NCBI GenBank assembly: GCA_018262095.1
Contig: JAGTRW010000016.1
Span: forward strand, 19,843 to 83,842
Length of the DNA: 64,000 nt
Source: Pseudomonadota bacterium
Lineage (GTDB): Bacteria; Pseudomonadota; Gammaproteobacteria; Burkholderiales; Rhodocyclaceae
Reading direction: 5' to 3'
Shown here: positions 8,489 to 62,826 of the stretch, piece by piece
How the letters are laid out: each line of letters begins with the position of its first letter
Numbering within the stretch: position 1 is the first letter of the stretch
Translations under genes and position numbers: made by a program
Notes under the pieces: generated by a model
Seen by the model: only the letters and a program-made list of their open reading frames with translations
Told to the model about the DNA's origin: nothing
Database searches by the model: none

Positions 8489-8577
8489 ATTAACCACGGC
8501 GAACACAGCGGGCACAGCGAATTTCCAATAGAAATAAAGCGGATTTCTCGCCGTGGCCGCCGTGTCGCTGTGGTTGA
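8489..8577 (+). repeat. Intra-operon hairpin repeat, copy 1
   Basis: The left arm 8492-8520 begins ACCACGGCGAACACAGCG and continues with a further CACAGCGA unit. The right arm 8546-8575 is its approximate reverse complement, ending GTCGCTGTGGTT. The loop is about 25 bases. It starts seven bases after the binding-protein stop and ends 33 bases before the permease start. Confidence 0.85.
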
Positions 8578-8608
8578 AATGCCTTTACGACTTACCTGAG
8601 GATCAGGC

Positions 8609-9868
8609 ATGACCGATTTCACTGCAACTCTGCCCGCGACGCTGGCCGTTGAGGCGCCGATTTCGCTCAAGGCCCAGCTGCGCCGTGCCGAGCGACTCAA
8701 GAAGCTCAAGTTCGGCGCGCTGATCGTGCCGCTCGCGCTGTTCTTGCTGCTCACCTTCGTCTGGCCGATCGCCGCGCTGCTCAAGCGTAGCGTCGACAAC
8801 CCCGAGGTGGTCGCCGCCTTTCCGGACACCTGCGCGCTGCTGCGCCAGTGGGACGGCCAGGCGCTGCCCGACGACGCCGTCTATGCGTCGTTCGCCGGCG
8901 AGGTCGACCGGATCAAGGGGACGCCGGTCCTGGCCAGCGCCGCCAAACGGCTCAACATGGAGCTGCCGGGCTTTCGCACGCTGATGATGCGCACCGCCAA
9001 GGCGATGCCGGTCGCAATCAACGGTTCGGCACGCGCCGCGCTGATCGACGCCGACGAGCGCTGGGGAGAGGTCGCCACTTGGCAGTACCTGGCGCGCAAC
9101 GCCTCACCCTATACCGCGCGCTACCTGCTCGCCTCGGTCGATCGCAAGTACGACGATTTCGGCAATATCGTTGCGGCCGACGATGACGAAGCGATTTACG
9201 TCAAGGTCCTCACCCGCACCTTCGGCATGTCGGCGGTGGTCACCGCGGTGTGCCTGCTGCTCGGTTTTCCGCTTGCCTATATGATGGCGACGCAGCCGGC
9301 GAAGATCGCCAACACGCTGCTGATCTTCGTTCTGTTGCCGTTCTGGACGTCGATCCTGGTACGCGTCGCGGCGTGGATCGTGCTGCTGCAGACCGAGGGC
9401 CTGGTCAACCAGGCGCTGATGGGGCTCGGGATCACCGATCATCCGCTGCAGCTCGTCTTCAACAGCACCGGCGTCTATATCGCGATGGTGCACATCCTGC
9501 TGCCGTTCATGATCCTGCCGCTCTACAGCGTCATGAAGGGAATTTCGCCGACCTATGTGCGCGCCGCGCTGTCGCTCGGCTGTCCGCCGTTTCGCAGCTT
9601 CTGGAAAGTCTACTTCCCGCAAGCGCTGCCCGGCGTCGGCGCCGGCTGCCTGCTGGTGTTCATCCTGTGCATGGGCTACTACATCACGCCGGCGCTGCTC
9701 GGCAGCCCCAAGGAGCAGATGGCGAGCTACTTCGTCGCCTTCTACACCAACCAGACGATCAACTGGGGAATGGCCGCGGCGCTCTCGGCGATCCTCTTTG
9801 TCGCGACGCTGGCGCTCTACATGGTCTATACGCGGCTGGTCGGCAGTTCGACGCCGGCCGTGCGTTGA
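8609..9868 (+). CDS. ABC importer permease 1, polyamine type (PotB/PotH family)
   Basis: An integral-membrane permease of 419 residues. A first helix ([20 protein letters not shown]) is followed by a long insertion of about 130 residues before the core begins at TRTFGMSAVVTAVCLLLGFP, as in the longer members of the polyamine permease family. The EAA loop reads LSLGCPPFRSFWKVYFPQAL and couples to the ATPase. At least five further hydrophobic helices follow. ATG 8609 has GAGGA about eight bases upstream. It pairs with the shorter permease 11 bases downstream to form the heterodimeric channel. Confidence 0.9.
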   Translation: MTDFTATLPATLAVEAPISLKAQLRRAERLKKLKFGALIVPLALFLLLTFVWPIAALLKRSVDNPEVVAAFPDTCALLRQWDGQALPDDAVYASFAGEVDRIKGTPVLASAAKRLNMELPGFRTLMMRTAKAMPVAINGSARAALIDADERWGEVATWQYLARNASPYTARYLLASVDRKYDDFGNIVAADDDEAIYVKVLTRTFGMSAVVTAVCLLLGFPLAYMMATQPAKIANTLLIFVLLPFWTSILVRVAAWIVLLQTEGLVNQALMGLGITDHPLQLVFNSTGVYIAMVHILLPFMILPLYSVMKGISPTYVRAALSLGCPPFRSFWKVYFPQALPGVGAGCLLVFILCMGYYITPALLGSPKEQMASYFVAFYTNQTINWGMAAALSAILFVATLALYMVYTRLVGSSTPAVR

Positions 9869-9879
9869 AGGAGAAAGTC

Positions 9880-10704
9880 ATGCTTGCATCGTACGCTTCA
9901 CCGCTTGAGCGCCTCTGGCACTACGCCTTGCGCGCGATCTGCGGCTTGGTCGTCGTTTTCCTGATGTTGCCGATCCTGGTGATCGCGCCGCTGTCGTTCA
10001 ACTCGGATTCGTTCCTGCTCTATCCGATGTCCGGCTTCTCCTTGCGCTGGTACCAGGAGTTCCTGACCTCGCCGGCGTGGCAGCAGGCTTTCGTCAACAG
10101 CTGCATCGTCTCGCCGTTCGCGACGATCCTGGCCATGCTGCTCGGCACGCCGGCGGCGGTGGGACTGACGCGAATGGACTTTCCGGGCAAGGCGCTGCTC
10201 ACCGCGATCCTGATCTCGCCGATGGTTGTCCCGGTGGTCATCGTCGGCGTCGCGACTTACCTCGTCTTTGCGCCGATCGGCCTGTCCGGCAGCTACCTCG
10301 GACTGATCCTGGTGCATGCCGCGCTCGGCGTTCCCTTCGTCGTCACCACCGTCAGTGCGACGCTGCAGGGCTTCGACTTCAATCTGGTGCGTGCCGCCGC
10401 CAGCCTCGGCGCCAATCCGCTCACCACCTTCTTCCGCGTCACCTTGCCGCTGGTCGCTCCGGGCGTCATTTCGGGCGGACTGTTCGCCTTCGGCACCTCG
10501 TTCGACGAAGTCGTCGTCACGCTGTTCCTTGCCGGCCCCGAGCAGACGACGCTGCCACGCCAGATGTTTTCGGGAATCCGCGAGAACATCAGCCCGACGA
10601 TCGCCGCCGTCGCGACGATCCTGACGGTACTCTCGACGCTGATGCTGATCACGCTCGAATGGCTGCGCCGACGCGGCGAACGCCTGCGCAGCGCGGCGAG
10701 ATAG
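9880..10704 (+). CDS. ABC importer permease 2, polyamine type (PotC/PotI family)
   Basis: The second permease subunit, 274 residues. It opens with a strong helix (LVVVFLMLPILVIAPLSF), then the family segment SGFSLRWYQEFLTSPAWQQA, and an EAA loop in ASLGANPLTTFFRVTLPLVA. GTSFDEVVVTLFLAGPEQTT is the conserved C-terminal region of PotC-like proteins. AAGGAG (9868-9873) sits six bases before ATG 9880, overlapping the end of the upstream permease gene. An upstream frame extends to 9250 but overlaps permease 1 and is not used. Confidence 0.91.
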   Translation: MLASYASPLERLWHYALRAICGLVVVFLMLPILVIAPLSFNSDSFLLYPMSGFSLRWYQEFLTSPAWQQAFVNSCIVSPFATILAMLLGTPAAVGLTRMDFPGKALLTAILISPMVVPVVIVGVATYLVFAPIGLSGSYLGLILVHAALGVPFVVTTVSATLQGFDFNLVRAAASLGANPLTTFFRVTLPLVAPGVISGGLFAFGTSFDEVVVTLFLAGPEQTTLPRQMFSGIRENISPTIAAVATILTVLSTLMLITLEWLRRRGERLRSAAR

Positions 10705-10712
10705 GGAGCAGA

Positions 10713-10834
10713 ATTCACCACAACGACACAAAGAGCACAACGGAAAACGCCTTCTTGAGTACGTTGTTGCCCCCTCTGCGATTGACGGTCGATATTGGCT
10801 CAAAAAAGGGTTTCGTTGTGCACGTTGTGGTTGG
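10713..10834 (+). repeat. Intra-operon hairpin repeat, copy 2 (diverged)
   Basis: The left arm about 10716-10747 contains ACCACAACGACACAAAGAGC and the right arm 10811-10834 contains GTTGTGCACGTTGTGGTT. The arms match imperfectly and the loop is about 63 bases. The left arm begins 11 bases after the permease stop, and the right arm ends 40 bases before the gabD start. It shares the ACCAC...GCACA framework with the other copies, with A replacing G at several positions. Confidence 0.7.
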
Positions 10835-10874
10835 CGATTTTCGCCATTTTTGGAACTAGATAAGGACATTGCAT

Positions 10875-12329
10875 ATGCTCAAGCTCAAGGACGCGACGCT
10901 CTTCCGCCAATGTTGTTACATCGACGGCGCCTGGCTCGATGCCGACGAACCCGCGACCATCGCCGTGCGCAATCCGGCGACCGGCGAATTGCTCGGATCC
11001 GTGCCGAAGATGGGCGCCGCCGAAACGCGGCGCGCCATAAACGCCGCCGATGCGGCGCTGCCCGACTGGCGCGCGCGCACCGCTGCCGAGCGCGGTCGGC
11101 TGCTGCGTCGCTGGTACGAGCTGATGCTCGAAAATCAGGACGACCTGGCGCTGATCATGACCTGCGAACAGGGCAAACCGCTCGCCGAGGCCAGGGGCGA
11201 AATCGCCTACGCGGCAAGCTATCTCGAGTGGTTCGCCGAGGAGGGCAAGCGCGCCTACGGCGAGATCATTCCGCCCAACGGCAAGGATAGGCGGCTGCTG
11301 GTCACGCACGCGCCGGTCGGTGTCTGCGCGGCGATCACCCCGTGGAACTTCCCGGCCGCGATGATCACGCGCAAGGCCGGCGCGGCGCTCGCCGCGGGCT
11401 GCACGATGGTGCTCAAGCCGGCCAGTCAGACGCCGTTTTCCGCCTTGGCGCTCGCTGAACTGGCGCAGCGCGCGGGAATTCCCAGGGGCGTCTTCAACGT
11501 CGTGACCGGCGCTGCCAAGGCGATCGGCGGCGAAATCTGCGCCAACCCGGTCGTGAGAAAGCTTTCCTTCACCGGGTCGACCGAGATCGGTTCGCAACTG
11601 ATCGCGCAGTGCGCGCCGACCGTCAAGAAACTCTCGATGGAGCTTGGCGGCAACGCGCCGTTCATCGTCTTCGACGACGCTGATCTTGACGCCGCGGTCG
11701 TCGGCGCGATGGCGTCCAAATACCGCAACGCCGGACAGACCTGCGTCTGCGCCAACCGCCTGCTGGTCCAGGATGGCGTCTATGAGCAATTCGCCGCCAA
11801 GCTGGCGAAAGCGGTTTGCGAACTCAAGGTCGGCAACGGCGTCGATGTTGGCGTCACGCAAGGGCCGCTGATCGATCAGGCGGCGCTCGCCAAGGTCTGC
11901 GATCTGGTCGCCGACGCGGTGGACAAGGGCGCTCGCGTCGTCTGCGGCGGCAAGGCGCACGCGCTCGGTCGCACCTTCTTTGAACCGACCATCCTCGCCG
12001 ACGTCACCCCCGAAATGCGCATGGCGCGCGAAGAGATTTTCGGGCCGGTGGCGCCGCTCTTCCGCTTCAAGGACGAGGCCGAGGCGATCGCTATGGCCAA
12101 CGACACCGAGTTCGGTCTCGCCTCGTACTTCTACGCGCGCGACGTCGGTCGAATCTTCCGCGTTTCGGAAGCGCTCGAATACGGCATGGTCGGCGTCAAT
12201 ACCGGCTTGATTTCGACCGAGATCGCGCCCTTCGGCGGCGTCAAGTCATCGGGCCTGGGCCGCGAAGGATCGCGCCACGGCCTTAGCGACTACCTCGAAC
12301 TCAAATACGTCTGCGTCGCCGGTATTTGA
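10875..12329 (+). CDS. gabD: Succinate-semialdehyde dehydrogenase
   Basis: Oxidises succinate semialdehyde to succinate with NAD(P), the last step of GABA degradation. The 484-residue protein has the aldehyde dehydrogenase fold: ITPWNFPAAMITRKAGAALA (cofactor region), SFTGSTEIGSQL, the general-base glutamate in MELGGNAPFIVFDDADLD, and the catalytic cysteine in NAGQTCVCANRLLVQ. The ending GGVKSSGLGREGSRHG is also typical. ATG 10875 has AAGGAC eight bases upstream; an in-frame TTG at 10869 is less likely. It lies between the importer and gabT, each junction holding a hairpin repeat, which supports succinate semialdehyde over other aldehydes. Confidence 0.93.
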   Translation: MLKLKDATLFRQCCYIDGAWLDADEPATIAVRNPATGELLGSVPKMGAAETRRAINAADAALPDWRARTAAERGRLLRRWYELMLENQDDLALIMTCEQGKPLAEARGEIAYAASYLEWFAEEGKRAYGEIIPPNGKDRRLLVTHAPVGVCAAITPWNFPAAMITRKAGAALAAGCTMVLKPASQTPFSALALAELAQRAGIPRGVFNVVTGAAKAIGGEICANPVVRKLSFTGSTEIGSQLIAQCAPTVKKLSMELGGNAPFIVFDDADLDAAVVGAMASKYRNAGQTCVCANRLLVQDGVYEQFAAKLAKAVCELKVGNGVDVGVTQGPLIDQAALAKVCDLVADAVDKGARVVCGGKAHALGRTFFEPTILADVTPEMRMAREEIFGPVAPLFRFKDEAEAIAMANDTEFGLASYFYARDVGRIFRVSEALEYGMVGVNTGLISTEIAPFGGVKSSGLGREGSRHGLSDYLELKYVCVAGI

Positions 12330-12344
12330 TTTGCTGACAAAAAA

Positions 12345-12462
12345 TTAACCACGGCGGGCACAGCGAACGCGGCGAAGACCGATAGCGTGCAGGCTCGCAG
12401 CCAGTGCAGAGAGCTCCGTCGATTGAAAGGTTCGCTGTGCCCGCCGTGTTCGCCGTGGTTTG
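12345..12462 (+). repeat. Intra-operon hairpin repeat, copy 3
   Basis: The left arm 12345-12376 contains ACCACGGCGGGCACAGCG, and the right arm 12431-12461 reads TTCGCTGTGCCCGCCGTG and then TTCGCCGTGGTTT. The loop is about 54 bases. It sits between gabD and gabT, with its ACCAC starting 17 bases after the gabD stop and ending 47 bases before gabT. Confidence 0.85.
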
Positions 12463-12508
12463 AATCGAATTTCCCAATTGCAACTTTACGATCTCAGGAG
12501 AACAGCAC

Positions 12509-13825
12509 ATGAATTCAATGACCGACCTTCAATCTCAAACCAACGATGGTCTGATGGCGCGGCGCGCTGCGGCGCTGCCGCGCGGGGTTTCGCAGGCACA
12601 CGGCGTGTTTGCCGAGCGCGCCGAGAACTCCGAAATATGGGACGTCGAAGGTCGGCGCTGGATCGATTTCTGCGCCGGAATCGCGGTCGTCAACACCGGC
12701 CACTGCCATCCGCGCGTGATGGCCGCGGCGCGAGCGCAGATGGAAAAGTTCACTCACACCTGTTTCCAGGTCGTCGCCTATGAAGGCTACGTCGAGCTCG
12801 CCGAGCGCCTCAACGCGCTGGCGCCGGGCAAGACGCCGAAGAAGAGCTTCTTCATGAACAGCGGCGCCGAAGCGGTCGAGAACGCGGTCAAGATCGCTCG
12901 CGCAGCGACCGGACGCAGCGGAATCATCGCCTTCAACGGCGCTTTCCACGGCCGCACGATGTTCACGCTGGCGCTCACCGGCAAGGTCAATCCGTACAAG
13001 ACCGGCTTCGGGCCGTTCCCGGCCGAGGTCTATCACGCGCCGTATCCCAACGCGCTGCACGGAATTTCCGTCGACGACGCGATCGCCGGAATCGAGCTGA
13101 TCTTCAAGAACGACATCGAGGCGGCGCGCGTCGCGGCGATCCTGGTCGAACCGGTGCAGGGCGAGGGCGGCTACCTGCCGGCGCCGGCCGAGTTCTTTAA
13201 GCGGCTGCGCGCGCTGTGCGACCAGCACGGCATCCTGCTGATCGTCGACGAGATCCAGACCGGCGCGGCGCGCTGCGGGACGATGTTCGCCATCGAACAC
13301 GCCGGTATCGAACCCGACATCATCACCATGGCCAAGGGCTTGGGCGGCGGCCTGACGCTGTCGGCGGTGATCGGCAAGGCGGCGGTGATGGACGTCGCGG
13401 TTCCCGGTGCGCTGGGATCGACCTACGCCGGCCACCCGATGGCGGTCGCCAGCGCGCTCGCCGTGCTCGACGTGATCGACGAAGAACAGCTGTGCGCGCG
13501 GGCCTTGGCCATCGGCGAAAAGACGCGCGCCAGATTCTTGGCGTTGGCCTCGCGCTTCGATTGCATCGCCGAAGTTCGCGGTCTGGGCGCGATGACCGCC
13601 GTCGAATTTTGCCAGCCGGGCGATGTGCAGCGACCGGCGCCGGAGATCATGAACGCGCTCAAGGCCGAGGCGGCCAAACGCGGGCTGCTGGTGCTCGGCT
13701 GCGGAAGCTACGGCAATGTGCTGCGCCTGATGCTGCCGCTGACGATCCCCGATGCGGTGCTCGACGAGGGAATGGACATCCTCGAAGCATCGCTCGCCGC
13801 CGCGGTCGATCTCGTCGCCCGCTGA
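12509..13825 (+). CDS. gabT: 4-aminobutyrate aminotransferase
   Basis: Transfers the amino group of GABA to 2-oxoglutarate, giving succinate semialdehyde for GabD. The 438-residue class III aminotransferase shows the PLP cradle FFMNSGAEAVENAVKIAR, AFNGAFHGRTMFTLALTGK, the aspartate in LLIVDEIQTGAARCGTMFA, and the PLP lysine in DIITMAKGLGGGLTLSAVIG. CAGGAG lies seven bases before ATG 12509. It closes the importer-gabD-gabT operon. Related aminotransferases act on putrescine or 5-aminovalerate, but pairing with GabD makes GABA most likely. Confidence 0.93.
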   Translation: MNSMTDLQSQTNDGLMARRAAALPRGVSQAHGVFAERAENSEIWDVEGRRWIDFCAGIAVVNTGHCHPRVMAAARAQMEKFTHTCFQVVAYEGYVELAERLNALAPGKTPKKSFFMNSGAEAVENAVKIARAATGRSGIIAFNGAFHGRTMFTLALTGKVNPYKTGFGPFPAEVYHAPYPNALHGISVDDAIAGIELIFKNDIEAARVAAILVEPVQGEGGYLPAPAEFFKRLRALCDQHGILLIVDEIQTGAARCGTMFAIEHAGIEPDIITMAKGLGGGLTLSAVIGKAAVMDVAVPGALGSTYAGHPMAVASALAVLDVIDEEQLCARALAIGEKTRARFLALASRFDCIAEVRGLGAMTAVEFCQPGDVQRPAPEIMNALKAEAAKRGLLVLGCGSYGNVLRLMLPLTIPDAVLDEGMDILEASLAAAVDLVAR

Positions 13826-13846
13826 AGCTGGGTCGCGCGCGGCAGT

Positions 13847-14878
13847 TCAGTCGCGCCGCGCGTCGGCCTGCTGCGCCAGGTCTTCGAGAATCCTGATCGT
13901 CGGGATCACGCTTGCCGGATCGACCGGCGGCGGTGTCCCGGCGCGGATGGCCTTGGCCACACCGCGGTAAAAGGAAGGATAAGCGCCGGCCAGCGTCGGC
14001 AGCCGGCGCTCAGCGATTCCTTCTGGCTGCGCCAGCAACAGCGATCCCCACCGCGCCGGATCTTCCCGGCCCCAGTCGGTAGCGTTCAGCGCCTTGCCCG
14101 ATTGCAGGTCTTTTTCTTGCGGGTCCTTGCCGAATTTGACGTAGCTGCCATTGAGGCCATGGACGACGAAGCGCGGACCTGGCCAGGCGCGGACCATCGC
14201 GGCGCGCAGCGTGACGCGTAGCGCGGGCGAGTAGTCGAGGCGGATCTCGAAGTCGTCTGGCGTTTGCGCGCCCGGCCGGGTGCGCCGGAAATCGCCCGAC
14301 CAGCTGCGCGGGACGCCGAACAGTTCGACCGCCTGATCGACGAGGTGCGCGCCGATATCCCACAGCAGACCGCCGCCGGTCGTTTGATCTTCCTTCCAGC
14401 TGTCGCGGATGGCAACGCGGTAGCGGTCGTAGTTCGATTCCAGGCTGACCATCGTTCCCAGCGTCACGTCGCGCAGCAGTTGCTTGACCGTCAGAAAATC
14501 GCCGTCCCTGCGCCGGTTGTGGAAAACGCTGAGCATCAATCGGCGCTCGCGCGCGAGGTTGACCAGGTCTTGCGCCTCGCGGCTCGACAGGCAGAACGGT
14601 TTGTCGACGACGACGTGCTTGCCGGCCTGCAGCGCGCTCCTCGCCAGCGCGCCGTGCGTCGCGTTGGGCGTGGTGATCACCACCAGTTCGATCTGGCTAT
14701 CGGCAATGATTTGCTCGCAACTCGCCTGCGCCGTTGCGGGATAGGCACCGGCAAACTCGGCAAAGCGGCTGCCGCTCACTGCCTTGAGCGCGAAACCGCC
14801 GTCGCCGGCGAGCAGCGGGCCGTGAAAGACCTGCCCGCCCATGCCGAAGCCGATCAGCCCGGTGGCGATTTTCTTCAT
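13847..14878 (-). CDS. Gfo/Idh/MocA family oxidoreductase
   Basis: A 343-residue NAD(P)-dependent dehydrogenase of the sugar/inositol type. The Rossmann motif TGLIGFGMGGQVFHGPLL starts at residue 7, and the family EKP-like catalytic motif is VVVDKPFCLSSREA. The C-terminal half (LESNYDRYRVAIRDSWKED, GLLWDIGAHLVDQAVELFG) resembles E. coli YdgJ. Its ATG overlaps the antitoxin stop as ATGA, so translation is probably coupled to the toxin-antitoxin pair, an unusual arrangement for a metabolic enzyme. It converges on gabT 21 bases away. The substrate is unknown. Confidence 0.87.
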   Translation of the reverse strand: MKKIATGLIGFGMGGQVFHGPLLAGDGGFALKAVSGSRFAEFAGAYPATAQASCEQIIADSQIELVVITTPNATHGALARSALQAGKHVVVDKPFCLSSREAQDLVNLARERRLMLSVFHNRRRDGDFLTVKQLLRDVTLGTMVSLESNYDRYRVAIRDSWKEDQTTGGGLLWDIGAHLVDQAVELFGVPRSWSGDFRRTRPGAQTPDDFEIRLDYSPALRVTLRAAMVRAWPGPRFVVHGLNGSYVKFGKDPQEKDLQSGKALNATDWGREDPARWGSLLLAQPEGIAERRLPTLAGAYPSFYRGVAKAIRAGTPPPVDPASVIPTIRILEDLAQQADARRD

Positions 14879-15162
14879 CGGCTGACGGGAGTCGCCGAAA
14901 GCTTGACGCCCAGCGCGTGGAGCAGCTTGAGCATGGTGTCGTAGCGCGGCTTGGCTCCCGGGGTAAGCGCCTTGTAAAGGCTTTCCCGACCAAGACCGGC
15001 ATCCTTGGCGAGCTGTGCCATGCCGCGGGCGCGCGCCACGTCGCGTACGGCGGTTAAAAACACATCGGGATTGGGATCTTCCAGTGCGGCGGTGATGTAT
15101 TCGGCGATGGTTTGCTCATCATCGAGGTAGTCGGCCGCATCAAAGGTCGAAAATTTGACCAT
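14875..15162 (-). CDS. Antitoxin with Xre-type helix-turn-helix (HigA-like, TIGR02684 type)
   Basis: A 95-residue putative addiction-module antidote that should neutralise the adjoining RelE/HigB-like toxin and repress the promoter. It starts MVKFSTFDAADYLDDEQTIA, typical for the family, followed by YITAALEDPNPDVFLTAVRD. The helix-turn-helix is MAQLAKDAGLGRESLYKALT and the end is YDTMLKLLHALGVKLSA. AAGGAG inside the last codons of the toxin gene lies six bases before ATG 15162, and the genes are three bases apart, so toxin precedes antitoxin as in higBA. The stop overlaps the start of the downstream oxidoreductase. Confidence 0.9.
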   Translation of the reverse strand: MVKFSTFDAADYLDDEQTIAEYITAALEDPNPDVFLTAVRDVARARGMAQLAKDAGLGRESLYKALTPGAKPRYDTMLKLLHALGVKLSATPVSR

Positions 15163-15165
15163 CGT

Positions 15166-15465
15166 TCACTCCTTGTTCAAAGTCCGCGCCATCTCGATAG
15201 CACGTTTGATGTCACGCTTCTGAGAGGACTTGTCGCCGCCCAGCAGAAGCAAATAAACCACCTCGGCATGCCGAGTAAAGTAGGCCCGGTAGCCGGGGCC
15301 GACGTGCACTCGCATTTCGTGGACACCTTCGCCGACCGGCGCACAGTCGCCGAAGTTGCCGTGCTCGGCAGACCGGATTCGATGAACGATTCGGGCACGA
15401 CCCTGTTTGTCTTTCAGGCCGCTGAGCCAGGCGTTGAATTCGTCGGAGCGCTCAAAGCTGATCAT
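15166..15465 (-). CDS. Toxin of RelE/ParE family (HigB-like, TIGR02683 type)
   Basis: A 99-residue killer protein, probably a ribosome-dependent mRNA interferase or relative. MISFERSDEFNAWLSGLKDK, ARIVHRIRSAEHGNFGDCAP, VHEMRVHVGPGYRAYFTRHA and VYLLLLGGDKSSQKRDIKRA match the addiction-module killer family. ATG 15465 is preferred because the frame upstream runs through a palindromic operator and because family members are about 95-100 residues long. No Shine-Dalgarno is visible, and a -10-like TACAAT at 15478-15473 would place the transcript start at about the ATG, suggesting a leaderless message (inference). Confidence 0.88.
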   Translation of the reverse strand: MISFERSDEFNAWLSGLKDKQGRARIVHRIRSAEHGNFGDCAPVGEGVHEMRVHVGPGYRAYFTRHAEVVYLLLLGGDKSSQKRDIKRAIEMARTLNKE

Positions 15466-15472
15466 GGATTGG

Positions 15473-15501: not shown

Positions 15502-15531
15502 TGTCGAATGCGTCGGTGTGGCGAATCAACC

Positions 15532-19502: not shown

Positions 19503-21938
19503 ATGAGATTGACGTACAGGCTGCGCGCAGGGATACTCGTGGCTCGGTCTTTTCCTGTCAATTCCCGGTGCAAAAGGTGCGGCCTGTTGAACACTTCATC
19601 TGAAGCACTCGCGCCGGCCTTGCGGTGTTTGAATCGACAGCAGCGCTTCCTGCTGTTCGGTGCGATTTACGTCACGCTGTGGATCAGTACCTGGTACTCC
19701 GCACGCCTGCTTGACAATCTGGATGTCGTCAGCCTGTGGTTCCTGCCGGCGGGGCTGCGTTTTGTCTGCCTGCTGGTTCTCGGCTGGCGCGGGCTGCTGC
19801 TGGAGCTGGCGGTTCAGCTTGCGTTCCTGCTGATGCAGCTGACGCAGCTCGCTGGGGTGCCGATTCCCGAGATCCTGTCTGTCCATGCCTTATGGCGAAT
19901 CTACAACCTGCTGGCGTCGCTGTTGGCCAACGCTGCGCTGATCCTTCCGTTGCGTTGGTGGATGCGCGATTCGTGGGACTTCTCGCGTCCCGCGCACAGC
20001 GCGCTGTTCCTGGTCGCCAGCCTGGGCGTCAGCGCCTTGTCGGCGCTGGCCGGTACGTTCGGTTTGCTCAAGCTCGGATTCGTCAGCGCGACAGCGTGTT
20101 CAGACGTCTTTGTCAAATGGCTGACCGGTGACTTTGTCGGCATCATCACGCTGGCGCCGTTGCTGCTGTTGGCCGTGGTTCCCCGCCTCAAGAACTATCT
20201 GCAGCGCGGATTCTGGCTCAGTCAGCGCAGATCCGCGGCAAGCGCGAAGTCGTCGGATCTGCCGACGATTCTGATCGTGCTGTCAGCGCTGCTGCTGGTC
20301 TTCTGCATCCCATGGCAGTTGGACGTTAACCAGAATTTCCCGCTGATTACGCTATTGTTGTTGCTGCCATTGGCCTTCGTGGCGCTGCGTTACAGCCTGC
20401 GCGGTGCGGTCATCGCGGTCGTCTTGCTCGATGGCGGGATGGTCATCTTGATCGCGCTTTTTGACAAGCAAGGCCAGGCGCTCCACTATCAGTTGGTGAT
20501 GATCGCCATCGCGCTGATGGGCCTGTGGCTGGGTGGGGCGGTGGAAGCGCGCAATCGGCTGATGGCCCGCTACCGTGATTTCGCCAGCGTTTCCAATGAC
20601 CTGCTTTGGGAAGCCGACAGCCAGGGCCGTCTGCTCGAGGCCAGCGGTCGGCTGGCCAATCAATTCGTATTGACCCCTGGACACTGCTGGCGATCGTTGT
20701 TGCACCAGGGCGCACAACCGCAACTGGCCGAACTCGACCAGGCCCTGAGGCGACGACAGCCGTTTCGGCAGGTGGCGATCGCGATGCAAAATAGCGGCGG
20801 CGAACTGCTCTGGATTCAACTCAACGGTCTGCCCGTGCGCAGCGCCGCAGGTGAGTTCTGCGGCTACCGCGGTAGCGCCGTCGATGTCTCGACGGCACGG
20901 CAAGCGGAAGAGCAACTGCGCAATTACAACGACGATCTGCTCAGCGAAGTCGCCGAGCGCACCCGTTCTCTGCGTCAGACCAATGGCGAACTGGTAGTCA
21001 AGGACAGGCATCTTGAGGTGTTGTTGGCGGCTGTACCGGTCGGCGTGCTGGAGTTCGATGATGCTCATCGCTGCCGCTTCATCAATGTCAATGGCTGCGT
21101 GTTGACCGGCTTTACCCCGGAGCAGGCGCAAGGTGCTTTTGTCCTCGATTTCGTTCATCCCGACGACCGCGCGCACGTCGAATTCGTCCTCAAGATCAAT
21201 CGCCAAAGCGATGGCGTGCAATGGCTCGAATTCCGCCCTGGTCTTACTGATCAGCGGTGCTCGGCGCACTGGATCAATCTGCGTCATGCCGATCACTCGA
21301 TGGACGGCGCCATCATGGTGCTGAGCAGCGCGACTGCACGCAGCCAGCAGGATGAGCGGCTATGGACGCAGGCCCACCACGACGCGCTGACCGATTTGCC
21401 CAACCGCAACCTGTTCCAGGATCGGATCGGGCAGGCCTTGCGCCACGCCAAGCGCCGGCAAGGTGGCGCGGCAGTATTGTGGATCGACCTCGATGCATTC
21501 AAGAATGTGAACGACAGCCTTGGCCATGCCGCCGGCGATGCGTTGCTGCAACAAGTGGCGCAACGGCTCAAGAGTCGGATACGCGACAGCGATACCGTGG
21601 CCCGTATGGGCGGCGACGAGTTCGCCGTGATCATGCCGGACATCACCCAGCCCGAGGACGCGCTGCAGATTGCCCGGCAGATGGTCGCCAGTCTGGCCGA
21701 GCCGTTCGACCTGCCGCAGGGGCTGGCGAACGTTTCGGCCAGCATTGGCGTGGCGCTCTATCCGCAACATGCGACGAGCGTTGAGACGCTGACGCAATGC
21801 GCTGACATGGCGATGTACTCGGCCAAGAATTCAGGCAAGAATCAAGTTCAGGTTTGGCGTGGCGCCGCGCCGGCAAGCGCAGCAGATACGGTTCAAGCGC
21901 CTTCCAATATCACGACGCCGGGCTGCGCAATCGAGTAG
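19503..21938 (+). CDS. Membrane diguanylate cyclase, MASE1-PAS-PAS-GGDEF
   Basis: Synthesises the second messenger cyclic di-GMP. The 811-residue protein has an N-terminal multi-helix MASE1 sensor (about 45-345, e.g. FLLFGAIYVTLWISTWYSA and VVSLWFLPAGLRFVCLLVL). A first PAS follows (about 360-470, SNDLLWEADSQGRLLEASG), a short coiled linker (AEEQLRNYNDDLLSEVAERT), a second PAS (about 505-620, LEFDDAHRCRFINVNGC), and the GGDEF domain (about 635-795). The active motif is MGGDEFAVIMPD, and the inhibitory I-site RDSD sits five residues before it, so product inhibition is expected. No EAL domain is present. Start ATG 19503 has a weak ribosome site; a downstream TTG is possible. Bacteriohemerythrin follows by 37 bases. 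Confidence 0.9.
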   Translation: MRLTYRLRAGILVARSFPVNSRCKRCGLLNTSSEALAPALRCLNRQQRFLLFGAIYVTLWISTWYSARLLDNLDVVSLWFLPAGLRFVCLLVLGWRGLLLELAVQLAFLLMQLTQLAGVPIPEILSVHALWRIYNLLASLLANAALILPLRWWMRDSWDFSRPAHSALFLVASLGVSALSALAGTFGLLKLGFVSATACSDVFVKWLTGDFVGIITLAPLLLLAVVPRLKNYLQRGFWLSQRRSAASAKSSDLPTILIVLSALLLVFCIPWQLDVNQNFPLITLLLLLPLAFVALRYSLRGAVIAVVLLDGGMVILIALFDKQGQALHYQLVMIAIALMGLWLGGAVEARNRLMARYRDFASVSNDLLWEADSQGRLLEASGRLANQFVLTPGHCWRSLLHQGAQPQLAELDQALRRRQPFRQVAIAMQNSGGELLWIQLNGLPVRSAAGEFCGYRGSAVDVSTARQAEEQLRNYNDDLLSEVAERTRSLRQTNGELVVKDRHLEVLLAAVPVGVLEFDDAHRCRFINVNGCVLTGFTPEQAQGAFVLDFVHPDDRAHVEFVLKINRQSDGVQWLEFRPGLTDQRCSAHWINLRHADHSMDGAIMVLSSATARSQQDERLWTQAHHDALTDLPNRNLFQDRIGQALRHAKRRQGGAAVLWIDLDAFKNVNDSLGHAAGDALLQQVAQRLKSRIRDSDTVARMGGDEFAVIMPDITQPEDALQIARQMVASLAEPFDLPQGLANVSASIGVALYPQHATSVETLTQCADMAMYSAKNSGKNQVQVWRGAAPASAADTVQAPSNITTPGCAIE

Positions 21939-25539: not shown

Positions 25540-25678
25540 TGAACCACGGCGAACACGGCGGGCACCGCGAGAACCTCTGTTTTGAGGTGTTTTCTTCTTG
25601 CTTCACTGGTGAGTGTGTCGAGAAAAGCGATTGAAGATTTTGCCTCTCGCCGTGTTCGCCGTGCCCGCTGCGGTTAAG
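25540..25678 (+). repeat. Intra-operon hairpin repeat, copy 4
   Basis: The left arm 25542-25572 begins AACCACGGCGAACACGGCG and the right arm 25644-25677 contains CGCCGTGTTCGCCGTGCCCG and then CTGCGGTTAA. The loop is about 71 bases. It starts 12 bases after the ligJ stop and ends 21 bases before ligK. Confidence 0.85.
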
Positions 25679-35803: not shown

Positions 35804-36045
35804 TTTTAACCACGGCGACACGGCGAACACAGCGAAATGCCTGAGGTTTTCAGTATTTTTTCGCCAACCCAAAGGATGAATTCAAGAACCATCGCAATTA
35901 AGTAGGTGCTGATTAAATGCAAAAATGTCATTCCCGCGAACGCGGGAATCCAGGAAAAGCAACGAACTGGACCCCGGCCTCCGCCGGGGTGACGAATAAA
36001 AGATGTCTCCTTAATTGTTTTTCCGCTGTGTTCGCCGTGGTCAAC
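35804..36045 (+). repeat. Intra-operon hairpin repeat, copy 5, carrying another repeat in its loop
   Basis: The left arm 35804-35836 contains ACCACGGCGACACGGCGAAC and the right arm 36019-36044 contains CCGCTGTGTTCGCCGTGGT. The loop is about 182 bases and contains the NIME-like element at 35926-35995. The ACCAC arm starts 16 bases after the kinase stop and the right arm ends 71 bases before the dehydrogenase start. Confidence 0.8.
35926..35995. repeat. dRS3/NIME-like element nested in hairpin repeat 5
   Basis: ATTCCCGCGAACGCGGGAAT (35930-35949) has exactly the ATTCCC-N8-GGGAAT form of neisserial dRS3 repeats. A second hairpin CCCCGGCCTCCGCCGGGG lies at 35972-35989. The ends, GTCATTCC and GGGGTGAC, are imperfectly complementary, giving a compound element of about 70 bases. 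Confidence 0.75.
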
Positions 36046-48725: not shown

Positions 48726-48729
48726 AGGC

Positions 48730-54342: not shown

Positions 54343-54354
54343 TGATACGCTCCC

Positions 54355-57054
<2,700 letters not shown>

Positions 57055-57411
57055 GACTTGTCTCCTAGCCTGCGGGTGGGGAGTGTCGCTCATCGGTGCT
57101 TGACGAAAACGACAAGGGTAATGCGCGGTCGCGATGGAAAGTACCGCAGTGCATCAATCACGATGTTTATGTCACATTGTAAAACATGATCCTGTATCGT
57201 GCAATAAAAGCAAAGCAATTTAAATATTCATAGCCAAAGGATCAATGATGGCGTAAGAATGCCGTAAAGAGGCTTGGTTCCCGATCAGACCGAACATTTG
57301 GCGGTCGGCGACGAACGATGGCTGCGGCAGACGGTCATTCAAAATGACGGCTGGTGTGGAGGGGCGCGGCGAAGTGGCGGCGCGGGGTGGCATTGCGAAA
57401 GACTATTTTTT
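57055..57411. other. Divergent promoter region between aceE and the FapA-like gene
   Basis: About 357 bases. It contains the minus-strand promoter for aceE at 57176-57204 and a leader of about 115 bases. The 57170-57250 patch is AT-rich. No PdhR-type palindrome like ATTGGTATGACCAAT was found. The promoter of the plus-strand FapA-like gene was not identified. Confidence 0.5.
57176..57204 (-). promoter_or_regulatory. Sigma70-type promoter of the aceE-aceF-lpdA operon
   Basis: On the minus strand TTGCAC (57204-57199), a 17-base spacer, and TACAAT (57181-57176) form a near-consensus promoter. The predicted start is near 57169. Confidence 0.7.
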
Positions 57412-59019
57412 ATGACCGATTTTCCGGGGTTGGTGTTTTCTGCGAACGAAAACCAGCTTTTGGCGTCTCTGCGCCAGTCTTCAGAACGGCCATTGCTTGA
57501 TCTCGATGGCTTGCGTGAGATGTTGTCGCGTGCCGGTTACGGACAGTGCCAGCTGTTTGACGAGGCGCTCTCGACGCTGGTCGAAGCGTATAACTCGCCG
57601 GGGATTGAGCTCGAATTGACGATCGGCGAGTGTCGCGCTGCGAGCTTTACGCTCGAAATTGCCGCCGACGCGATGCAGGCCTGGATCAACGTGACTGCGG
57701 CGCGTGGCGGCAAGGCGCTCGAAGTCGACGCGGTGTTCGCGGCGCTCGACGCAGCCGGGGTGATTTTCGGTATCGATCAGGCGGCGGTGAGCGCGGTCTG
57801 TGCCGCCAGTGCGACGCAGGGCGCCGAGCGCGCCTGTATCGCCAGCGGAAAGCCTGCGGAAAACGGCATCGACGCGAGCTTCGAACTGCTCGTGACCGAT
57901 GCGCGTGACCGCTCGCCGCGTGTCGACGAAAAGGGCTTGATCGATTTTCGCGATCTGGGCGAGATCCCGTCGGTCGCTGCCGAACAGCCGTTGATGCGGC
58001 GCATCCCGCCGACGACCGGAACGGCCGGGCGTAACGTCCGCGGTGGGGCCGTCGAGCCGGTGCCCGGGAAAAATCTGCCGTTCGCTGAAAATCTTGTCGG
58101 CGCTTATGTCGCCGACGACGACGCCAATTTGCTGCGCGCGGTGTTCAGCGGGCAACCCGTTCGCTGCGGCAATGGCGTTAACGTCGAGCCCATTTTGCAT
58201 TTTCGCAACGTCAACCTGGCGACGGGCAATGTTTCCTTTGACGGCACGGTGAGCATCGAAGGCGAGGTCCTGCCCGGAATGAAGGTGCATGCGACCGGCG
58301 ACATCATCGTCGGCGGTGTGATCGACGGCGCCGAGCTCAAGGCCGGCGGCGACATCCGCATCGGTGGCGGGATTATCGCCAAGGCGCAGGTCGAGGCCGG
58401 CGGCGCGGTGTCGGCGCGTTTCGTCGAAAACTCGCAGGTCCTCGCCGGGACGACCATCGCCATCGACGACACGGCCCTGCAGAGCGACTTGCAGGCCAAT
58501 AATCAAATCGTCGTCGGTCTCAACTCACCGCGCGGACGACTGGCCGGCGGCTCGGCGCGCGCGATGATGCTGATCCAGGTGCCGATCCTCGGCTCGTCGA
58601 CGGGCGGCGTGACCCGCCTGTTGCTCGGCGTCAATCCGGTGCTCGACGCCAAATACCAGCAGCTGCAGAAGACCATCGAGAAGCAGCGCGAGGAAGAAAG
58701 CAATCTCGAAAAACTGGTCAAACATCTTTCGACGCATGGCGACAAGGCCGGCATGCTCGAACGCGCCAAGGCGTCGTGGCAAAAGTCGCTGCAGGCGTGG
58801 GCCAAACTGCTGCCGGAGAGAGACGCGCTCGAACAGGAGCTGGCCTTGACCGCCACGGCGAAAATCGAAGTCGGCGCGGGTGTCGAGGGCGCGGTCGACA
58901 TCACTTTTTGCGGCAAAGCGCTGCGCCTGCGCCGCACCTACGAGACGGGCAGCTTTTCAATGGACGGCGACCACATCGTCTTCACCGACATGATGGGCCA
59001 CGTCAAACCCGCCGGCTAG
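57412..59019 (+). CDS. FapA family protein (DUF342)
   Basis: A 535-residue cytoplasmic protein of the FapA/DUF342 family. The family core is PRVDEKGLIDFRDLGEIPSV, then a beta-helix-like glycine-rich stretch (SFDGTVSIEGEVLPGMKVHA, GDIIVGGVIDGAELKAGGDI, RIGGGIIAKAQVEAGGAVSA). A coiled coil follows (LQKTIEKQREEESNLEKLVK). Members have been linked to polar growth or flagellar/chemosensory clusters in other bacteria, but no such genes are nearby. ATG 57412 is the family-like start (MTDFPGLVFSANENQLLASL) with a weak ribosome site. The function here is unknown. Confidence 0.82.
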   Translation: MTDFPGLVFSANENQLLASLRQSSERPLLDLDGLREMLSRAGYGQCQLFDEALSTLVEAYNSPGIELELTIGECRAASFTLEIAADAMQAWINVTAARGGKALEVDAVFAALDAAGVIFGIDQAAVSAVCAASATQGAERACIASGKPAENGIDASFELLVTDARDRSPRVDEKGLIDFRDLGEIPSVAAEQPLMRRIPPTTGTAGRNVRGGAVEPVPGKNLPFAENLVGAYVADDDANLLRAVFSGQPVRCGNGVNVEPILHFRNVNLATGNVSFDGTVSIEGEVLPGMKVHATGDIIVGGVIDGAELKAGGDIRIGGGIIAKAQVEAGGAVSARFVENSQVLAGTTIAIDDTALQSDLQANNQIVVGLNSPRGRLAGGSARAMMLIQVPILGSSTGGVTRLLLGVNPVLDAKYQQLQKTIEKQREEESNLEKLVKHLSTHGDKAGMLERAKASWQKSLQAWAKLLPERDALEQELALTATAKIEVGAGVEGAVDITFCGKALRLRRTYETGSFSMDGDHIVFTDMMGHVKPAG

Positions 59020-59158
59020 CCGCCCAGCGTCCTCGCCGCCGGACCCGTCGGCGCTCCGATCAGGCCTTTGAGCCGAGACTGCGCCAAGCGGCTGGGGTAT
59101 ACTGCGTCGCTGAATTTCCCGCCGTTTCGAAGTCATTCGAGCCCTTTGGAGAGATGTG

Positions 59159-61027
59159 ATGGCCGCAGTCATGCCCGCGCCGGCGCAAAGCCGGCTCTTG
59201 ATGTCAGGTAACGAGGCGGTGTCCCGTGCCGTCTGGGAGTCGGGCGTGCGCGTCGCCGCCGCCTACCCGGGAACGCCGGCGACCGAAATGCTCGAGGAGA
59301 TTTCGACCTACCCTGATCTCTACGCCGAATGGTCGGTCAACGAGAAGGTCTCGCTGGAAGTCGCTTTCGGCGCGGCGATGGCCGGCTCGCGCGCCTTCTG
59401 CGCGATGAAGCACGTCGGCCTGAACGTCGCCTCAGACGCCTTGATGACCATGACGCTGACCGGCGTCGCCGGCGGCCTGGTGATCGCGGTGGCCGACGAC
59501 GTCGGCCTGTCGTCGTCGCAGAACGAGCAGGATTCGCGCTACTGGGGCCGCTTCGCGCATCTGCCGGTGCTCGAGCCGTCCGATTCGCAGGAGGCGCACG
59601 ACTTTACGCTCGCCGCCTTCGAACTCTCCGAGCGCTTCCAGACGCCGGTGATCCTGCGCCTGACGACGCGCATCTGCCACGTCAAGGCGCTGGTCACCGT
59701 CGGCGAGCGCAGCATGCATCCGGTCGCCGGCTTCACCAAGGACGTCGGTCGCTGGGTGATGGTTCCGGGCGCCGCTGGCCGCCGTCTGCCGCTGATGTTC
59801 GAGCGCGAAAGCCGCCTGCGCAGCGAGGCCGAGGTTTCACCGTTCAATGTGCTCGAAACTGGCGCCGACCGCCGCGTCGGCTTTGTCACCTCGGGCCCGG
59901 CGTATATGCACGTTCGCGAGCGCTTCCCCGACGCGCCAGTGTTGAAGCTCGGTTTTTCGTATCCGGTGCCTTTCGAGCTGGTGCGCAAGTTCGCTGATCA
60001 GTGCGACCAATTGGTCGTCGTCGAGGAAGTCGAGCCGCTGATCGAGACCGAAATCAAGGCGCAGGGTATCGCTGCGCTCGGCAAGGACATCCTGCCGCGT
60101 AGTGGCGAACTTTCGCCCGCTGTGCTCGGGCCGGCGATCGCGCGGCTGCTCGGCGAAACCGTTGCCGAAGCCCCGGTGGCGACGCCGATGCAAGTCTTTC
60201 CGCGGCCGCCGACGATGTGCGTCGCCTGTCCGCACCTCGGTGTCTATTACACGCTGGCGCAGCTGCGCAACGTCACCGTCTCCGGCGACATCGGCTGCTA
60301 CACGCTCGGTTTCGGCCAGCCGTGGAACGCACTCGACGCGTGCATCTCGATGGGGGCGTCGATGGGCATGGCGCACGGCCTCGACAAGGGCCGTGCCGAT
60401 TCCGAAAAGGACAAGAAGATCGTCGCCGTGATCGGCGACTCGACCTTCATGCACATGGGAATGCAGGGCCTGCTCAACATCGTCTACAACCGCGGCAACG
60501 TCACCGTGTTGCTGCTCGACAACCGCGCCGTCGGCATGACCGGCGGCCAGAACAATCCGGGCAACGGCCACGGCATCCACGGCGAAGACGCGCCGCGCGT
60601 CGATTTCGCGAACTTGGTCCGCGCGCTCGGCGTTCGCGATGAGCGCGTGCATGTCGTCGACCCCTACGAACTGCCGACGCTGTTCAAGACGCTGCGCCAG
60701 GAAACCAAGATCGCCGAGCCGTCGGTGATCATCACCAACCGGCCTTGCGTGCTGACCGACGACTTCAAGGCGCGATCGCCGTTCATGGTCGATAGCGACA
60801 AGTGCACCGGCTGCGGCAACTGCGTCGATATCGGTTGCCCGGCGATCCACGTGACGCGGCGCGAGAAGGTGATCAAGAATTCGGGCAAGGAGGTTGAGCT
60901 CAACTTCGTTCGCATCGAGAGTTCGGCGTGTACCGGTTGCGGCCTCTGCCTGCAACCCTGCGCGCCCGACGCCATCGTCCCGGTGGGCGAATTGTCGATG
61001 CCGATTCATGTGGTAAAGAAGAATTAA
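59159..61027 (+). CDS. iorA: Indolepyruvate ferredoxin oxidoreductase, alpha subunit
   Basis: The large subunit of an arylpyruvate:ferredoxin oxidoreductase that converts indolepyruvate or phenylpyruvate to aryl-acetyl-CoA. The 622-residue protein has the N-terminal pyrimidine domain (RVAAAYPGTPATEMLEEIST), CPHLG and GDIGCYTLGFGQPWNALDAC, the ThDP motif VIGDSTFMHMGMQGLLNIVY to LLLDNRAVGMTGGQNNPGNG, and two [4Fe-4S] motifs, CTGCGNCVDIGCP and CTGCGLCLQPCAP. GGAGAG lies about six bases before ATG 59159. It needs the beta subunit encoded by the frameshifted gene downstream. Confidence 0.94.
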   Translation: MAAVMPAPAQSRLLMSGNEAVSRAVWESGVRVAAAYPGTPATEMLEEISTYPDLYAEWSVNEKVSLEVAFGAAMAGSRAFCAMKHVGLNVASDALMTMTLTGVAGGLVIAVADDVGLSSSQNEQDSRYWGRFAHLPVLEPSDSQEAHDFTLAAFELSERFQTPVILRLTTRICHVKALVTVGERSMHPVAGFTKDVGRWVMVPGAAGRRLPLMFERESRLRSEAEVSPFNVLETGADRRVGFVTSGPAYMHVRERFPDAPVLKLGFSYPVPFELVRKFADQCDQLVVVEEVEPLIETEIKAQGIAALGKDILPRSGELSPAVLGPAIARLLGETVAEAPVATPMQVFPRPPTMCVACPHLGVYYTLAQLRNVTVSGDIGCYTLGFGQPWNALDACISMGASMGMAHGLDKGRADSEKDKKIVAVIGDSTFMHMGMQGLLNIVYNRGNVTVLLLDNRAVGMTGGQNNPGNGHGIHGEDAPRVDFANLVRALGVRDERVHVVDPYELPTLFKTLRQETKIAEPSVIITNRPCVLTDDFKARSPFMVDSDKCTGCGNCVDIGCPAIHVTRREKVIKNSGKEVELNFVRIESSACTGCGLCLQPCAPDAIVPVGELSMPIHVVKKN

Positions 61028-61032
61028 CAACT

Positions 61033-61173
61033 TCAGTTCAAACCACGGCGATACAGCGAGCACGGCGCGAAACCAGGTTTTGAGGGCCTATTGGGATCAA
61101 CCTCAAGCGAATTAAGTAAATCTTTTAAGCCTCTGTCTTTTCGCCGTGTTCGCCGTGCTCGCTGTGGTGAGCT
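61033..61173 (+). repeat. Intra-operon hairpin repeat, copy 6
   Basis: The left arm 61041-61072 begins AACCACGGCGATACAGCGAG and the right arm 61138-61168 contains CGCCGTGCTCGCTGTGGT. The loop is about 65 bases. It lies 13 bases after the iorA stop and ends 22 bases before the iorB start. Confidence 0.85.
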
Positions 61174-61190
61174 TGTTTTAGGAGTGTTTC

Positions 61191-61800
61191 ATGTCTGAAA
61201 TTACCAACATCCTCGTCGTCGGCACCGGTGGTCAGGGCGTCATGACGGCAACCGAAATCCTCGCCGAGGCGGCGATCGCCTTCGGCCACGACGTCAAAAA
61301 GACCGAAGTCGCCGGGGATGGCGCAGCGCGGCGGCGTCGTCTCGTCGCATCTGCGTTTCGGCGCCAAGGTGCTGTCGCCGCAGATCACGCCGGGGACCGC
61401 CGACCTGCTGCTCGGTTTCGAAGCCGCCGAAGGCATGCGCTGGCGCCACATGCTGCGCGCTGACGGCCTGGCGCTGATCAATAGCGGACGCCTCGTTCCT
61501 CCCGTCGTCGATCTGGGGCTCTACGACTATCCGGAAGACCCGGTCGCCGCCGTGCGTGCTGCCGGAACCCGCGTCTTTTCGTTCGACGCGTCGGCCATCG
61601 CCAGCGAACTCGGCGACGCCCGGCTAGGCAACAGCGTGATGCTCGGCGCCATTTCGGACTATCTGCCGTTCTCGGCGCAGGTGCTCGAGCAATGCATCCT
61701 CAAGCGTTTCGCGACCAAGAAGCCGGCGCTCATCGAGCTTAACCGCCAGGCCTTCGCCGCCGGTCGCGCGGCAGCGGCACAGGCCGCGCAGGCGGCGTGA
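61191..61800 (+). pseudogene. iorB: Indolepyruvate oxidoreductase beta subunit, interrupted by a +1 frameshift
   Basis: The beta subunit should contribute the gamma-type domain of the oxidoreductase. The first frame, from ATG 61191 (AGGAG upstream), encodes NILVVGTGGQGVMTATEILA and ends its homology at KKTEVAG. The homology continues one base over from 61318 as MAQRGGVVSSHLRFGAKVLS to 61800 (IorB C-terminus). The break is at GCCGGGGATGG, where four G at 61314-61317 replace an expected three. If the extra G is a sequencing error, the gene is intact at about 202 residues. Otherwise the subunit is truncated, or programmed frameshifting or restart at ATG 61318 would be needed; that restart has no proper ribosome spacing. 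Confidence 0.85.
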
Positions 61801-61850
61801 CGCGCCAGATTCCGGCGCCGATTTATCCTTACCCACCTTCTGGACCTCAC

Positions 61851-62705
61851 ATGACAGCACAACTTCTCGACGGCGTCGCACTCGGACAGCAACTGCGCGC
61901 CGGTTTCAAACAACGCGCCGATCAACTCGCTGCGCAGGGAACGCGGCCTGGCCTGGCGGTGATCCTGGTCGGCGAAGACGCGGCGTCGCAGGTCTATGTG
62001 CGCAACAAGGTCAATGCCTGCGCGCAGGCCGGTATCCACTCCGAGAAGTACGTCTTTGCGCCCGACGTCGCGCCGCAGGTGGTCTTCGACAAGATCGCCG
62101 AGCTTAACGCCGACCCCAAAATCCACGGCATCCTGGTGCAGTTGCCGCTGCCCAGACATTTTGACGCCGACGCCGTGCTCGAAGCGATCGCCGCGCAAAA
62201 GGACGTCGATGGCTTTCGCGCCGAGAACGTCGGCGCGCTGATGCAGGGCCAGCCCTGTTTCATTCCGTGCACGCCCTACGGCGCGATGAAGTTCCTCGAA
62301 AGCGCGGGGATTTCCGTCAAGGGCAAGGAAGCGGTCGTCGTCGGTCGCTCGAACATCGTCGGCAAGCCGATGGCGATGCTGCTGATGCACGCCGGCGCGA
62401 CGGTCACCGTCTGCCACTCTCAGACCAAGGATCTCAAGGCGCACTGTCTGCGCGCCGACATTCTGGTCGCGGCGATCGGCCGGCCGAAGATGATCACCGG
62501 CGACATGGTCAAACCCGGCGCGGTGGTCATCGACGTCGGCATCAACCGCATGGCCGACGGCAAACTCTGCGGCGACGTCGATTTCGAATCGGCCAGGGAG
62601 GTCGCTTCGTATATCACGCCGGTTCCCGGCGGCGTCGGCCCGATGACCATCACCATGCTGCTCGCCAATACGCTGGAAAGCGCCGAGCGTTCGGCCAGCG
62701 CCTAA
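61851..62705 (+). CDS. folD: Bifunctional methylenetetrahydrofolate dehydrogenase/cyclohydrolase
   Basis: Interconverts 5,10-methylene-, methenyl- and 10-formyl-tetrahydrofolate. The 284-residue protein has the substrate motif [17 protein letters not shown] with the catalytic Tyr-x-x-x-Lys, [30 protein letters not shown]-binding [20 protein letters not shown], and the C-terminal [23 protein letters not shown] 61851 begins the family N-terminus ([19 protein letters not shown]). It lies 50 bases past iorB, followed by a hairpin repeat and then purE. Confidence 0.96.
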
Positions 62706-62706
62706 A

Positions 62707-62826
62707 TTTTTGACCACGAAGAACACCAGGAAAAGACAAAAGGTCCGATCCGCTTGAACTTTTTGTCTTTCTTCGTGCTCTTGGTCCCTCCGGGATTTGC
62801 TTCGCGCTATGTCCTTCGTGGTTAAG
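62707..62826 (+). repeat. Intra-operon hairpin repeat, copy 7 (GAAGAA variant)
   Basis: The left arm 62711-62741 has ACCACGAAGAACACCAGG and continues to AAGACAAAA. The right arm from 62761 has TTTTGTCTTTCTTCGTGCTC then TTGGT, and a second terminal copy CCTTCGTGGTTAA ends at 62825. The main loop is about 19 bases. ACCAC starts about six bases after the folD stop and the repeat ends 29 bases before purE. GC-richness is lower than in the other copies. Confidence 0.75.

Follow-up and report, generated by a model that had tools for sequence, protein, structure and literature searches.

Hairpins between co-directional genes in a Rhodocyclaceae genome: probable copies of a small mobile DNA family

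Several described families of short repeats bear comparison with the seven inverted repeats considered here, which lie in a 64,000-nt stretch of a Rhodocyclaceae genome (the window; positions 19,843 to 83,842 of contig JAGTRW010000016.1, assembly GCA_018262095.1), all of them in gaps between plus-strand genes, where the initial annotation had placed them. REP, BIME and REPIN sequences are high-copy extragenic palindromes with lineage-specific expansions. The family to which the seven repeats belong has the same character; it differs from those of REP type with a RAYT transposase in that this genome carries no RAYT, and in having target-site duplications (TSDs). Tn3-derived TIMEs are non-autonomous elements with inverted repeats and 5-bp duplications, and the family resembles them in all of this. 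Tn3-type ends start with GGGG and have 38-bp inverted repeats; the family's ends, compared by reading, run CCTRGAAA... and are not of that type. ERIC is expected among E. coli records, and membership was set aside because one full copy matched nothing by blastn (E 1e-5) in a collection of 20,395 of them.

ERIC copies at the 3' ends of genes affect mRNA through an RNase E site, and the terminal inverted repeats (TIRs) of Correia (NEMIS) elements are cut by RNase III (PMC10969869). Both are, like the family here, short TIR elements in transcribed gaps; unlike them, the family makes 5-bp duplications. In Streptococcus pneumoniae, copies of BOX supply the stop codon of 36 genes; BOX has a modular A-B-C structure, and not TIR arms of tandem 9-mers (PMC3049150). 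The likeness is that some copies here (in loci L042 and L028) appear to give the upstream gene its stop codon, from the element end, or a short tail. Chunjie, a miniature inverted-repeat transposable element (MITE) of Geobacter uraniireducens, shares with the family, by its description, multiple copies, TIRs, direct repeats and a mostly intergenic location; it differs in length (178-235 bp, against ~165 nt here). A review has Chunjie-1 disrupting one phosphate uptake operon, which conflicts with the title of the paper. A search by titles and the starts of abstracts, with subscription papers mostly outside it, brought up no MITE at start codons or gene overlaps and no such repeats of Propionivibrio or Accumulibacter; arm strings gave, among the matches listed, none on bacterial repeats, and longer strings gave unrelated ones only.

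The seven hairpins are probably copies of a MITE-like family, likely spread by a transposase, rather than structures kept for a function in RNA. The firmest part of this interpretation is the view of the family as MITE-like mobile DNA settling at gene ends and at stop and start codons. Its copies are short (~165 nt), bear TIRs and are many (82 elements in 1.03 Mb); TSDs are found, as are empty sites in relatives. The initial annotation had proposed either an RNA-level element or a mobile hairpin that only such gaps would tolerate, and the second proposal gains support from TSDs in 8/20 full-length copies, from the empty sites, from an expansion confined to the species and from the rarity of copies in divergent gaps (3/97).

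The source genome is a 4.80-Mb draft of 82 contigs (97.7% complete); a permease of the window places Candidatus Accumulibacter sp. UBA704 and Propionivibrio species nearest to it among named relatives. When the genome was searched with an arm pattern, ACCACNNNGN{1,2}CACNNNG, and with that pattern read backwards as a control, 121+127 matches (248) were found against 15+7 (22); the repeats are not chance. Arm counts within the genus range from none over control up to 287. A full copy used as query found 25 places here, 1, 1 and 2 in three congeners and 0 in the other 24 of 27.

In the flanks of 54 pattern pairs the repeat continues past ACCAC. The full-length form consists of an outer end of ~19 nt, three arm units of 8-9 nt, a loop of ~66 nt and the mirror image. 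In an alignment of 20 copies the outer end reads CCTRGAAAAAGCAGTTGA or similar, the arm units are of the type NNCACRRCG, and the loop holds an inner stem, TCACCC...GGGTGA. The earlier view that only the paired arms are conserved thus falls short of the family, which extends beyond them: the better-preserved copies carry the ~19-nt outer end on each side. That the loops are unrelated holds only in part, since 24 of 70 loops of at least 20 nt fall in one cluster (23/69 without that of L025, which a nested repeat ties in), with the loop at 35804-36045 inside it and the other six of the window outside, and 28/70 in any cluster. Loop matches over all copies are 29 in the same sense and 29 in the opposite; between co-directional copies they are 17 and 20. 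The loops are therefore in part one family with free orientation, and the fixed orientation once proposed finds no support in these counts or in the arms, which are palindromic.

No convincing TSD was found near ACCAC (offsets 0-7), because the true ends lie ~18 nt further out. At those ends an exact 5-mer stands at both boundaries in eight of the 20 full-length copies, against a mean of 1.19 and a maximum of 6 in 5000 shuffles. The TSD and divergence tests cover 20 of the 25 family places, with L183-L187, some of them partial matches, left out. The eight 5-mers are ATGAA (three times), TTGAA (twice), ATTCA, ATAAA and GATAA; by eye, with no fitted model, we read a target consensus WTNAW, which fits seven of them, one (ATTCA/TTCAA) after a shift of one base. 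WTNAW occurs at 0.7% of coding positions, at 216/858 starts (as ATGAW) and at 130/858 stops, and two of the ATGAA copies (L159, L165) stand at a start codon. An earlier candidate, the TGA stop as specific target, was replaced by WTNAW when TGA proved not to be enriched at the expected distance (14/22 vs 493/858).

Among the 20 copies, pairwise difference is 10-16% in the arms, 39% in the loops and 36-37% in the outer ends, so that divergence in the loops is 2.5 to 4 times that in the arms; these copies were collected by similarity to one member, which may favour conserved parts. The eight with an exact TSD, presumably recent insertions, differ by 6-12% in the arms, 34% in the loops and 18-31% in the outer ends. 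Loops so diverged in such copies suggest that most loop drift is older than insertion, and, with the arms alike, that the arms were probably under constraint while the element moved, as transposase binding sites would be.

Two orthologous junctions in relatives, whose genes were identified by Pfam, provide the empty sites. At the nucleotidyltransferase-aminopeptidase P junction (a pair we read, beyond Pfam, as murU-pepP), 14 of 22 readable relatives have a 4-nt ATGA overlap, and this genome has ATGA-element-ATGAA. At the response regulator-histidine kinase junction the genes overlap in 13/14 relatives (ATGA in 11, GTGA in 2), and the element here sits between two ATGA copies. Kinase matches below 45% identity were excluded as non-orthologous; two congeners, G014 and G011, have the nucleotidyltransferase and no readable junction, and G014 has none for the kinase pair. 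In the window, the gap between permease and aldehyde dehydrogenase genes measures 170 nt, against 24-98 nt in 22/24 named relatives and 138 and 162 nt in the remaining two, and the arm pattern is absent from it in 24/24. That between aldehyde dehydrogenase and aminotransferase genes measures 179 nt, against 31-46 nt in 18/22 (126-208 in the others), with the pattern absent in 21/22; only Propionivibrio limicola has it, with units of CACCAAG type. Hairpins of other units (CGCAGAG, CACCAAG) stand in P. limicola at three junctions of this operon where the genome studied has its own. A same-genus genome, G009, shares its junction sequences with P. limicola (L144 vs L069), and on this ground the genus is presumably Propionivibrio or one closely akin to it.

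Placement was scored in the window plus 50 stretches, 1.03 Mb together; 45 stretches were picked for having matches, and of the 5 extra ones 3 hold elements. Genes come from a simple in-house caller, not an annotation, and since starts may be called too late (the true start of the POR gene called at 61318 is probably further upstream), distances to starts are approximate. From 93 arm rows, 11 were dropped, 5 inside genes and 6 partnerless by the filter, although three of these six have partners on inspection (L013:6709, L015:7262, L041:8303); the rest give the 82 elements. Seventy lie between co-directional genes, 9 in convergent gaps, 2 in divergent gaps and 1 at a contig end. The co-directional ones are 36 plus/plus and 34 minus/minus, so contig strand is irrelevant. 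The absence from minus-strand operons noted earlier therefore stands for the window, where elements occupy 0/6 minus/minus and 7/14 plus/plus gaps of at least 60 nt (Fisher p = 0.051), and not for the larger sample, which has elements in convergent gaps as well. With 70/82 elements co-directional and 2 divergent, the positional pattern of the initial annotation is real.

Among gaps of at least 60 nt, any arm is found in 75/300 co-directional, 9/35 convergent and 3/97 divergent ones; for gaps containing a stop the comparison is 84/335 vs 3/97 (p = 1e-7). The congener G014 shows the same, 38/126 vs 3/29 (p = 0.035). The divergent share, 2/81 elements, lies so far under the 30% expected from WTNAW density (p = 2e-10) that promoter-bearing gaps must have been either purged or avoided. 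Purging seems the better account, and element position would be best explained by target choice together with loss near promoters.

The seven copies in the window are as follows.

8493..8574, no strand assigned: element 1, arms ACCACGGCG-AACACAGCG-GGCACAGCG / ACCACAGCG-ACACGGCG-GCCACGGCG, between an ABC solute-binding protein gene and a permease gene
10717..10831, no strand assigned: element 2, AACG-type arms, between a permease gene and an aldehyde dehydrogenase gene
12348..12459, no strand assigned: element 3, GGCG-type arms, between aldehyde dehydrogenase and class-III aminotransferase genes
25543..25674, no strand assigned: element 4, between an amidohydrolase gene and an RraA-like gene
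35809..36041, no strand assigned: element 5, right outer end CAACTGCTTTTTCTAGG, between FGGY kinase and 2-hydroxyacid dehydrogenase genes
61042..61168, no strand assigned: element 6, between genes for two parts of a pyruvate:ferredoxin-type oxidoreductase
62713..62822, no strand assigned: element 7, GAAG-type arms, between a folD-like gene and an AIR carboxylase gene

Their limits are ACCAC...GTGGT, once GCGGT. All 11 arm-pattern matches in the window fall inside these seven elements and none in called genes; more degenerate copies would escape the pattern. In element 2 the upstream stop TAG appears to occupy the expected place of the outer end CCTAG. The loop of element 5 (35809..36041) belongs to the main cluster, in the opposite orientation to that at L010:8143, and the right arm of element 7 is broken by a nested insert of ~25 nt, with its motif at 62792.

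A number of observations weigh against the MITE-like interpretation. No TSD stands at the offsets expected in any of the seven window copies (within 5-25 nt a single one, 35809-36041, has any exact 5-mer pair, and its offsets do not match); element 5 alone among them carries a main-cluster loop, and four are assigned on arms and position alone. Twelve of the 20 full-length copies have no exact TSD. The signal is weak across the whole set of 54 pattern pairs, 8/54 against a mean of 3.9, reached by 4/300 shuffles, as would be expected if many ends have decayed. The target is imperfect: GATAA lies outside WTNAW, ATTCA fits only when shifted, stops are not a specific target given the lack of TGA enrichment, and the third ATGAA copy (L170) is flanked by genes of the opposite strand and so does not stand at a start codon. 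Eight of the 22 relatives have no overlap at the nucleotidyltransferase-aminopeptidase P junction. The outer ends drift nearly as the loops do, which is unusual for true transposon ends, and no autonomous element with the same ends was found in the draft genome, where the 11 end matches (3 mismatches or fewer) all fall on short copies; nor did the plasmid collection give a match. Finally, 30 of 64 arm rows in G014 have no inverted partner (34/64 rows were dropped in the count for that genome), and many form head-to-tail arrays, which go beyond what a simple MITE explains; arms may spread otherwise than as inverted pairs. By eye, the arrays in L226, L227 and L228 have a period of very roughly 50 nt.

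A second perspective supposes that the hairpins act once transcribed, selected in operons as stability boundaries, RNase III processing sites or translation insulators. The preponderance of copies between co-directional genes speaks for it, as do the stability of the predicted folds (-26 to -88 kcal/mol for the window copies), arms more conserved than loops, and the unrelated inverted repeats seen by eye in the solute-binding protein-permease gap of some relatives. If pairing in the transcript were selected, differences between arms should favour G-U over A-C when read on the sense strand; the counts over the 70 co-directional copies are G-U 119 and A-C 145. Sense folds are lower than antisense in only 37/70 (p = 0.83); for element 1 the predicted minimum free energies are -43.4 sense and -45.0 antisense. 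Shared loops occur in both orientations, most relatives have no element at the junctions examined, and the loop divergence of the exact-TSD copies suggests that the constraint on the arms is older than residence at the locus. The RNA-level role suggested in the initial annotation thus finds neither a G-U excess nor a gain in sense-strand folding, and is unlikely as a general account, while incidental effects on RNA at single sites, through RNase III or stability, are possible. Rfam at the gathering score has 0 matches in the window, and one full copy gave a sub-threshold microRNA match only (E 0.12).

In a third perspective the arms are domesticated DNA sites at gene ends, bound by a nucleoid or supercoiling protein of the host, which after a single spread are maintained by selection. 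Conserved, strand-symmetric arms at gene ends and not at promoters speak for this. It does not sit well with copy numbers that run from background to 287 within one genus, with orthologous junctions empty of elements, or with arms already constrained where the TSD is intact; we regard it as quite improbable. Least probable of all are REP/REPIN-type repeats moved by a RAYT (a Y1 transposase), with arms as REP units around any spacer: the short palindromic high-copy extragenic units, the variable spacers and the free arms and head-to-tail arrays of G014 are in keeping with it, but mobilization by a RAYT was rejected because the 97.7% complete genome has 0 matches to Y1_Tnp (PF01797) in a search positive in 5/14 control genomes, 5-bp duplications are present, and the consensus has on neither strand GTAG or CGTC, the tag at the foot of the REP palindrome (PMC3733652).

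For the MITE-like family, the following course of events may be proposed. A DDE-type transposase would read the tandem arm units as binding sites, and the arms would stay alike on this account while the loops drift. Its target, WTNAW, would be rare in GC-rich coding DNA and frequent at starts (ATGAW) and stops (WTRAW). Insertion at an ATGA overlap would duplicate it, leaving each gene its own copy and both whole, so that such insertions survive; insertions in divergent gaps, near promoters, would be purged.

The ends may also carry something of use to the neighbouring gene. GAGG, a ribosome-binding motif, is found in 7/17 ends that meet an ATG 16-21 nt past GTGGT, and in 3/91 other ends (p = 6e-5), in a test independent of gene calls. 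With called starts the contrast is 7/12 vs 3/96 (p = 3e-6), from a caller that itself favours Shine-Dalgarno motifs. The element-borne GAGG may thus drive translation of the downstream gene. Where an element parts overlapping genes it might even replace the lost translational coupling, which is the weakest of the claims made here.

One might go further and suppose a mobile lineage adapted to operons, with its aim at WTNAW, a duplicated codon for each gene, a ribosome-binding site borne on its end, and gene overlaps as a niche shared by independent cousins. This is tentative, and we lean somewhat against it. The cousins would be the CGCAAAG hairpin of G023, at the nucleotidyltransferase-aminopeptidase P junction, the CGCAGAG units of P. 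limicola and a single-arm form in G001. In the last of these (L285) the regulator-kinase overlap holds a 72-nt insert flanked by ATGAA with one arm-like stretch; the site is empty in G025 (L288), and the insert is possibly a single-arm mobile form.

This account offers a concrete and testable reason for hairpins of such a kind between co-directional genes: the chemistry of the target, together with survival at gene ends and overlaps, and not necessarily a function in RNA. The junctions show a simple route by which tightly coupled gene pairs can be separated with neither gene lost, and they form a natural before-and-after series for measuring the worth of translational coupling.

Some further features touch individual copies. 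The ~25-nt insert of element 7, TGCCGCGAAGCNAATCCCNNNGGGA, lies inside arm units at NNCA|CRRCG and may be a second, nested micro-element; it recurs at L011:7402, L013:5583, L019:1534, L021:5093, L031:8275, L036:7062 and L054:7203, and of 10 motif matches in the 1.03 Mb, 8 (that at 62792 in the window included) are within elements and 2 outside any. The loop of element 5 holds a nested 93-nt repeat with palindromes of the type TGTCATTCCCGCG, 95.7% identical to a copy in L025 near 9848. A called gene at L042:8344-9681 runs into an element arm and ends in the repeat-coded tail NHGGHGEHSEKPNN. The inverted repeats of relatives in the solute-binding protein-permease gap (L059, L063, L065, L067), which stand behind the binding-protein gene, are perhaps mRNA stabilisers. 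Between two permease genes, L075 and L076 have a gap of 152-154 nt with inverted ends GAACTTGTGAA...TTCACAAGTTC, against 7-17 nt in 24/27 named loci, and this has the look of a further mobile element between genes of an operon.

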